Source: Sulfobacillus thermotolerans
GTDB taxonomy: Bacteria > Bacillota > Sulfobacillia > Sulfobacillales > Sulfobacillaceae
DNA length: 64,000 nucleotides
Assembly (NCBI GenBank): GCA_002951815.1
Contig: CP019454.1
Span: forward strand, 682,001 to 746,000
Direction of reading: 5' to 3'
Part shown: positions 46,306 to 47,558 of the stretch, piece after piece
How the letters are laid out: each line of letters starts with the position of its first letter
Position numbering within the stretch: the first letter of the stretch is position 1
Position numbers and translations under genes: made by a program
The notes under the pieces: generated by a model
Told to the model about the DNA's origin: nothing
Databases searched by the model: none
Seen by the model: the letters and a program-made list of their open reading frames with translations, nothing else

Positions 46306-46617
46306 TTAGTCCCGATGCTGTAACACAAAACGAAAGACGGTTTTATTGTTGCCAGTCAATCCTGATATTCGAATTATTTGCTTGAGGATATGATGAGGCT
46401 TAATATCCCATAACTTGCCAAAGCATTCATCCGCAAAGGCGCTTGTCATCACATCAATTCCCCGAAAATCTAGGTGAATGGTTTGCTGCTGCTCTACAGC
46501 GTCCACCAATAACTGTCGCAGCTTTCTTCCTTGCTCACGGCTTCCTAATAAATCAGTGGACATCCATTCTTTAACATTAAGAGAAAATACTTGACCCGAG
46601 GCCATGGCTAAAGCCAT
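46306..46617 (-). CDS. STAS-like DUF4325 protein
   Basis: A 103-residue protein. The centre IHLDFRGIDVMTSAFADECFG matches the STAS-like DUF4325 family: a beta strand ending in DFRG, then the loop where STAS anti-sigma antagonists carry their phosphorylated serine (here T-S in VMTSAF). The function of the family is not established. The ATG at 46617 has GGGAGGTGA upstream and overlaps the end of the ATPase gene by ten bases, so the two are translationally coupled. It may be the substrate or partner of that kinase-like protein. Confidence 0.83.
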   Translation of the reverse strand: MALAMASGQVFSLNVKEWMSTDLLGSREQGRKLRQLLVDAVEQQQTIHLDFRGIDVMTSAFADECFGKLWDIKPHHILKQIIRISGLTGNNKTVFRFVLQHRD

Positions 46618-47510
46618 TCGTTCACCTCCCATACTTCATCGTCATCCAAGTCATCAGTATGTCCTAGAATTTTTTCCATATCCACACGTCGACTTAAATC
46701 AAAAGTACAACTAAGACTCGTTCCTGGCCAATCCACTGCAGTCGATTCATACACTGTGCCATTTTCGCTAACAACAGCTATCGCCATGCCACTAATCAAG
46801 ACAAGACGATTTATAGATCCGTTATGCTCTATAATCTGTTTTACTAAGTATAACCCATTTCCTTTGCCGTCACTGCCCTTCTTTGAAGACCACCCTTGTT
46901 GCAAAGCCAATTTCAGCGCCATTTCATCGGTGCCTTGCCATTGTGGATTCCATTGCCGAATGGATCCGGTAATCCCGATCCCTGGGTCACATACAGCTAT
47001 TTGAACAATATTTCGACTCGGGAACACCTGTGCAAACACTAGTCCGCCGATTTCAGCACAAGAATGAATAAGGACATTGCCGAGAAATTCATTGAGGGAC
47101 CACGCTACCGCCCACTGAACTCCCGGTTCAAGCTGAGATTGAGATAAAATCATTTTGATTTCACGAATAACGAGTTCGATATGCTCTTGTTTTTGAATCC
47201 ATATGGCCGATATAAAACGCCCTGTCGGATCGTGTTCTAAAAAATGGAATGAATCATCTAATCCAAATATCTGTGTAAATCGCATGCGCTGAAGATAGGT
47301 GTAAACCTTATCCTTTGGCTTTGAGATCTCCCATGAATGGTTGGCGCTAATACTCGCTAACGGAGTAATGCCTCCAGGTTCCACCCATTGTAATTGATCG
47401 AATGACACTTCGCATGGTGATTGATTTAACAGCGCTGCTAGCCATGAATCCGAATGACGTAGACCTTGAACTAAAACATCTTCTGTCAATTGAGCCGGAA
47501 GATTAATCAT
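46608..47510 (-). CDS. STAS-like plus HATPase (GHKL) protein, partner of DUF4325
   Basis: A 300-residue protein. The first 120 residues look like a STAS domain (CEVSFDQLQWVEPGG onward). The C-terminal half is a GHKL ATPase: N-box LNEFLGNVLIHS, G1 DPGIGI and G2 GKGNGLYLVKQII. There is no H-box, so it is not a classical histidine kinase; it resembles SpoIIAB-type serine kinases fused to an antagonist-like domain. ATG at 47510 follows GAGGTG. With the DUF4325 gene it makes a two-gene module of unknown role. Base composition appears less G+C-rich than the neighbours. Confidence 0.82.
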   Translation of the reverse strand: MINLPAQLTEDVLVQGLRHSDSWLAALLNQSPCEVSFDQLQWVEPGGITPLASISANHSWEISKPKDKVYTYLQRMRFTQIFGLDDSFHFLEHDPTGRFISAIWIQKQEHIELVIREIKMILSQSQLEPGVQWAVAWSLNEFLGNVLIHSCAEIGGLVFAQVFPSRNIVQIAVCDPGIGITGSIRQWNPQWQGTDEMALKLALQQGWSSKKGSDGKGNGLYLVKQIIEHNGSINRLVLISGMAIAVVSENGTVYESTAVDWPGTSLSCTFDLSRRVDMEKILGHTDDLDDDEVWEVNEWL

Positions 47511-47540
47511 GGTACACCTCAATCCATTAGCACTACCCTA

Positions 47541-47558
47541 GAGGAATTCCTCATTATA
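47541..47558 (-). promoter_or_regulatory. -10 box and palindromic operator candidate of the STAS-HATPase operon
   Basis: On the minus strand a perfect TATAAT (47553-47558) is followed immediately by the perfect 12-bp palindrome GAGGAATTCCTC (47541-47552), which would cover the transcription start. No good -35 is seen. The layout suggests repression, possibly autoregulation. Confidence 0.45.

Follow-up and report, generated by a model that had tools for sequence, protein, structure and literature searches.

An overlapping ATPase-DUF4325 gene pair of Sulfobacillus thermotolerans related to the ATPase-VapS-VapC operon: a possible mobile partner switch without an adjoining effector

The window analysed here, a stretch of 64,000 nucleotides from the chromosome of Sulfobacillus thermotolerans (contig CP019454.1, positions 682,001 to 746,000), harbors two overlapping genes on its reverse strand, which encode a GHKL ATPase with a STAS-like N-terminus and a small STAS-like protein of the DUF4325 family (Table 1). 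The pair is a form of the emerging ATPase-VapS-VapC kind that has no effector beside it, and in our judgement there is an even chance that it represents a mobile partner switch which is driven by ATP and belongs to the kind controlling a toxin or defence effector, here without an adjoining effector. Most of what is known about partner switching comes from the sigma factors of sporulation and stress. The parts of such a switch are met again on phages and plasmids and within restriction operons, and the structure of one relative was solved together with a PIN toxin. An earlier note had taken the pair for a self-contained switch with a target; the notion of a target gains from the relative's STAS protein, VapS, which is found with its effector VapC in PDB entry 9z7o, while self-containment is doubtful, because some relatives have a third gene (a PIN toxin, or a type I restriction operon) which this locus lacks.

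Table 1. Features of the gene pair and its upstream region, in window positions.
Feature	Position	Strand	Basis
ATPase gene, 300 aa: STAS-like N-terminal domain and SpoIIAB/RsbW-like GHKL ATPase domain	46608..47510	-	Pfam, relatives' alignment, fused-relative fold
DUF4325 STAS-like partner, 103 aa, homologue of Escherichia VapS (PDB 9z7o chain A)	46306..46617	-	Pfam, family profile
10-nt overlap of the ATPase and DUF4325 genes	46608..46617	-	ORF coordinates
Ribosome-binding site GAGGTG (Shine-Dalgarno) of the ATPase gene	47515..47520	-	sequence
Ribosome-binding site GGGAGGTG of the DUF4325 gene, within the ATPase gene	46623..46630	-	sequence
TATAAT, possible -10 box, no recognisable -35	47553..47558	-	sequence, promoter scan
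12-bp palindrome GAGGAATTCCTC, directly after TATAAT	47541..47552	-	most likely chance

The HMM search of both proteins that the earlier note had proposed finds HATPase_c in the longer one (E 6e-6) and DUF4325 (PF14213) in the shorter one (E 1.7e-13; 50.5 bits at a gathering cut-off of 23 bits). HATPase_c models are the sole Pfam matches of the ATPase and no HisKA/H-box domain is found in it, as had been read from the sequence; lacking this dimerisation domain, it does not qualify as a two-component histidine kinase. The ten-base overlap is likewise as described, and translational coupling across it is likely. A single DUF4325 gene is present in the genome (3,317,203 bases, one contig). The long ORFs flanking the pair, read by eye, encode proteins of the GGDEF and DUF255 types, a short-chain dehydrogenase and a chloride channel; among the ORFs adjacent to this chromosomal copy there is no sigma factor, no PP2C phosphatase and no phage gene. 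The intergenic gaps around the pair measure 484 and 386 bp, which is an ordinary size, and the gene-poor stretches once seen there dissolve into these.

The fold was read from a fused relative (L114/L072), modeled with a 43-row alignment (A5), in which the domains follow each other in the order STAS, ATPase and DUF4325. The AlphaFold model reaches a pLDDT of 92.3 and a pTM of 0.88, compared with a pLDDT of 33 in a single-sequence run. Its ATPase domain matches SpoIIAB (1til_E; VIA-align Z 15.6, 2.3 Å over 133 residues) and RsbW (6m36_I; Z 13.2), which outrank other GHKL proteins among the matches listed, and its first 100 residues match the STAS antagonists TM1442 (Z 10.8) and RsbS (Z 9.9). 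On this relative, the model supports a family architecture of a STAS N-terminus followed by a SpoIIAB-type ATPase, in agreement with the type of kinase and the N-terminal STAS part proposed earlier. The structure matches listed for the fused relative all concern its other two domains, and DUF4325 is not among them; the fold of the latter is taken from sequence profiles, from viral DUF4325 models (TM 0.85 by target) and from 9z7o. Across nine relatives, the N-box residues E141 and N145, the DxGxG residues D175, G177 and G179, as well as G217 and G219, are invariant, and, judged by these residues, the ATP site of the window ATPase is intact.

In the STAS loop of the DUF4325 protein, the residues T58-S59-A60-F61 include the threonine-serine pair to which the earlier note had drawn attention, and hhalign aligns S59 with Ser58 of SpoIIAA (sequence checked against 1auz), the established phosphorylation site of that protein. 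An assignment in which the alanine preceding the invariant phenylalanine is a lost acceptor was dropped, as the alignment with SpoIIAA puts the acceptor one residue earlier, at the serine. The acceptor column holds Ser in 49 of 51 fused members and in the aligned Sulfobacillus DUF4325 proteins, Ser, Ser and Thr in the three PIN-linked members, and His or Asn (or another residue) in many other split members, including a restriction-linked one (L129) and that of phage MPV1. The acceptor serine is therefore not universal, and phosphorylation on Ser cannot serve as the one mechanism for all members of the family. In the His subset (L129, L106), the loop reads SHSF, THSF or NHSF, which raises the question of whether the GHKL ATPase might phosphorylate His, not Ser, in these members.

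The only convincing PDB sequence match of the DUF4325 family is 9z7o, 'Escherichia VapS' (E 3e-15 with a family profile, A2, that has the window sequence first), in which VapS is chain A and VapC, a PIN-domain protein, is chain C; the window DUF4325 protein matches E. coli VapS directly by BLASTP (E 3e-5). At a prophage end of E. coli JNE25-001 (L218), an operon encodes an ATP-binding protein, a STAS-like protein and a PIN protein in this order. The PIN protein aligns with 9z7o_C over its full length (E 4e-122), and the ATPase matches the window family profile (E 7e-38) and the window ATPase by BLASTP (E 9e-11). By this search, the ATPase-VapS-VapC operon occurs in two of 5,426 E. coli genomes, and the ATPase-DUF4325-PIN triple is found in Streptococcus phage Javan172 and on a plasmid of Deinococcus as well. 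The Javan172 PIN ORF (L107:5326-5853), which is homologous to Escherichia VapC, is unannotated, and the record shows a 120-bp hypothetical gene at its place. Near the window pair neither a PIN ORF nor a remnant of one was found, and a PIN search of the whole genome, made with one query and no positive control, gave no match. Literature searches found no paper on the ATPase-VapS-VapC operon and no function for any DUF4325 protein; the uses of the name VapS among the matches listed are unrelated, and a search on MADS returned nothing relevant.

The pairing of the ATPase with DUF4325 is old and wide. DUF4325 was found in 11 of 101 genomes comprising close relatives and the genome itself, among which several keep the pair and others have lost or broken the ATPase, and in 22 of 398 genomes of the phylum (Bacillota), many of them with the ATPase adjoining or fused. 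When ~85,000 species genomes, together with viral contigs, were scanned using an alignment of DUF4325, 82 loci across phyla were recovered, a count that includes near-identical loci and comes from a pattern, [SA]FADExFGK, that selects for that motif. The two genes are fused into one protein in 50 of these loci and adjacent in 24, while DUF4325 is solo in four and four further loci lie at contig ends, which leaves 78 evaluable loci and supports the conserved pairing on which the earlier reading depended. With the window ATPase as direct query, genome contigs gave no match, whereas the STAS alignment (A4) did; the Sulfobacillus alignment gave none in viral contigs, and a nine-sequence alignment was too diverse for use. 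In the ATPase tree, all split forms share the same side of a 98/96 branch, the window member lies among its Sulfobacillus relatives, the three PIN-linked forms group together, and the E. coli prophage ATPase is on a different branch of the split group from the window ATPase. On a plasmid of S. acidophilus DSM 10332 (CP003180.1; L014/L027, about 5.2-13.7 kb), the ATPase gene is divided into three pieces by insertion sequences and DUF4325 is intact. Two fused proteins (L053, L064) carry, as read by eye, an N-terminal helix-turn-helix-like region ahead of the ATPase and DUF4325 parts, suggesting that this branch may have a direct transcriptional output.

Split pairs are found between repressor and integrase in phages MPV1 and Javan172, downstream of the lysin gene where streptococcal prophages end, in further prophages beside holin, amidase or repressor genes, immediately behind TnsD and TnsE in a Tn7-like element, and on plasmids. 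In three Bacteroidota (L129:5738-8962, L141:3955-8960 and L163), HsdR ends 1-9 nt before the ATPase gene, with a GmrSD gene close by upstream in L141, and in L023, the closest of the relatives with the pair, the two genes lie about 850 bp upstream of BrxD/BrxL-like genes. Solo DUF4325 genes of Sulfobacillus relatives adjoin toxin-antitoxin genes, namely HicA-HicB (L021:9899-10923), AbiEii-AbiEi (L024:9580-11779) and TacA-like/GNAT (L017:1162-2496 and L018:8821-10656). In several beta-proteobacteria (L150, L152, L176, L183, L186), a fused ATPase-DUF4325 gene stands directly after glyQ and/or before glyS, and this fixed chromosomal place of some fused genes looks like housekeeping, not toxin control.

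Compared with a relative that is 66-67% identical, dN/dS is 0.18 for the ATPase gene and 0.14 for the DUF4325 gene, with synonymous sites near saturation; both genes are under purifying selection, hence they are real and in use. Their G+C content is 0.43, compared with 0.516 for the window, and GC3 of the ATPase gene is 0.37, compared with a mean of 0.54 (sd 0.04) over 29 long ORFs. In two sister species, a transporter gene comes directly after the DUF255 gene, and both the pair and the GGDEF gene are missing from this junction; in the window, the DUF255 gene lies upstream and that transporter gene comes after the GGDEF gene, and the nearest relative has other genes together with the GGDEF gene in the same slot, without the pair. 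As the slot is empty or variable in relatives, the pair is an insertion in a variable chromosomal slot and was probably acquired horizontally, which accords with the acquired module of lower G+C in the earlier description. The idea that the pair is linked to the GGDEF gene downstream was dropped, since the nearest relative has this gene without the pair.

Upstream of the ATPase gene, TATAAT is followed directly by the palindrome GAGGAATTCCTC, just as had been reported, and the palindrome had been proposed to be an operator, perhaps for autoregulation. The window contains seven perfect 12-bp palindromes, where ~15 are expected from length alone with equal bases; the upstream regions of five relatives do not have the palindrome; and the promoter scan accepts no -35/-10 pair that uses this TATAAT, with four promoters found in comparison with 4.1 expected from shuffled sequence. 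For these reasons, the operator, like the autoregulation, is unsupported, and it is given no weight.

In the switch reading, the GHKL ATPase would hold the DUF4325 STAS protein as its cognate partner, a partnership indicated, indirectly, by gene fusion and overlap. By analogy with SpoIIAB and SpoIIAA, the ATPase, when bound to ATP, may phosphorylate the STAS protein on S59, as the fold and the alignment would predict, and the phosphorylation state would then decide whether the STAS protein binds an effector. Effector binding is drawn from a relative only, whose VapS shares the PDB entry 9z7o with VapC. Near the window pair there is neither an effector gene nor a PIN remnant; the pair would therefore either be a version without effector, or an antidote, that selection maintains, or act in trans on an effector encoded elsewhere. 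We infer that S59 undergoes ATP-dependent phosphorylation, that the STAS protein switches partners between the ATPase and an effector, and that this effector is a toxin or defence protein. Of the partner-switch mechanism as the earlier note had conceived it, the anatomy, the fold, the acceptor serine and the pairing hold, but the serine does not extend to the many split relatives with His or Asn. The latter, together with the absent effector and the glyQ/glyS sites, count against the switch reading, as do the fused forms, which cannot release their partner as free SpoIIAA does.

Among the other explanations, the one with most in its favor, if still unlikely, is that the ATPase-STAS pair itself serves anti-phage defence or phage exclusion, with the ATPase sensing infection and no third gene needed. 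This would suit the split pairs at prophage cargo sites, after TnsD/TnsE, downstream of HsdR and near BrxD/BrxL-like genes (L023), as well as the many pairs without a third gene; however, the sole solved relative is paired with a toxin (9z7o), and no PADLOC system matches beyond the N-terminal part of one DrmA model. It is rather less probable that DUF4325 is an antidote to toxins encoded elsewhere, in the sense of anti-addiction, and the ATPase an optional regulator. The solo DUF4325 genes beside HicA-HicB, TacA-like/GNAT and AbiEii-AbiEi in Sulfobacillus relatives would be explained in this way, as would the S. acidophilus DSM 10332 plasmid with its intact DUF4325 and broken ATPase, yet such adjacency may be due to chance, because toxin-antitoxin genes are common on such elements, and most loci keep both genes together or fused.

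Classical sigma-factor partner switching, as in SpoIIAB/SpoIIAA/sigma-F or RsbW/RsbV/sigma-B, has the ATPase fold and the serine at the SpoIIAA acceptor position on its side, but we regard it as very improbable, given that neither a sigma factor nor a PP2C phosphatase adjoins the pair and that relatives of both genes are linked to toxins and restriction instead. Hardly any more credence is due, and if anything slightly less, to a general chromosomal regulator that is unrelated to conflict and for which the mobile contexts are incidental; while the fused forms at glyQ/glyS in several beta-proteobacteria and the fusions with an N-terminal HTH-like region point in that direction, the window member belongs to the split group (the 98/96 branch), which is the richest in phage, plasmid, restriction and toxin contexts.

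A wider proposal would be that the SpoIIAB-like ATPase-STAS switch is a reusable mobile controller into which different conflict systems plug (PIN toxins, type I restriction and perhaps BREX-like genes), that the window copy acts on such effectors in trans or alone, and that this controller forms a partner-switching layer of bacterial immunity that is not yet described; we consider this proposal doubtful. Should the ATPase free or lock a toxin through ATP-dependent phosphorylation of the STAS protein, toxins and defence enzymes would be gated in a way that is new, and such a model offers a function that can be tested for DUF4325, which occurs across phyla as a domain of unknown function.

Set beside known systems, the pair shares part of its make-up with a PADLOC model of DrmA from DISARM (PDLC02567, 1750 positions), which matches the module over about positions 24-395, with the 70s to 246 corresponding to the ATPase and 314-391 to DUF4325. 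DrmA of DISARM, however, has a helicase with a DUF1998 region, which the window lacks, and no DrmA fused to the pair was found among the DrmA matches in 398 Bacillota genomes, hence membership in DISARM is rejected; the match points either to a fusion that is rare or to a chimeric model that will mislabel such genes as DISARM. Pairs in Marinitoga phage MPV1, Streptococcus phages LYGO9, Javan140 and Javan172, and Clostridioides phage ES-S-0173-01 have the same two genes in the same order as the window, often likewise overlapping or a few bases apart, but they occupy phage cargo sites, and Javan172 adds a PIN gene. With SpoIIAB/SpoIIAA and RsbW/RsbV, the window family shares the ATPase fold (from the fused relative), a STAS partner with a serine at the position of SpoIIAA Ser58, and the absence of an H-box, whereas its ATPase has an N-terminal STAS domain of its own and is often fused to the STAS partner, no sigma factor or PP2C phosphatase adjoins the pair, and the acceptor serine is not family-wide. 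Escherichia VapS-VapC (9z7o) with its ATPase resembles the window pair in a homologous partner, a homologous GHKL ATPase upstream, gene order, adjacency and location on mobile DNA; it differs in having a gene for the PIN-domain VapC, which the window is without, and its ATPase is only 27% identical to the window ATPase over 142 aa.
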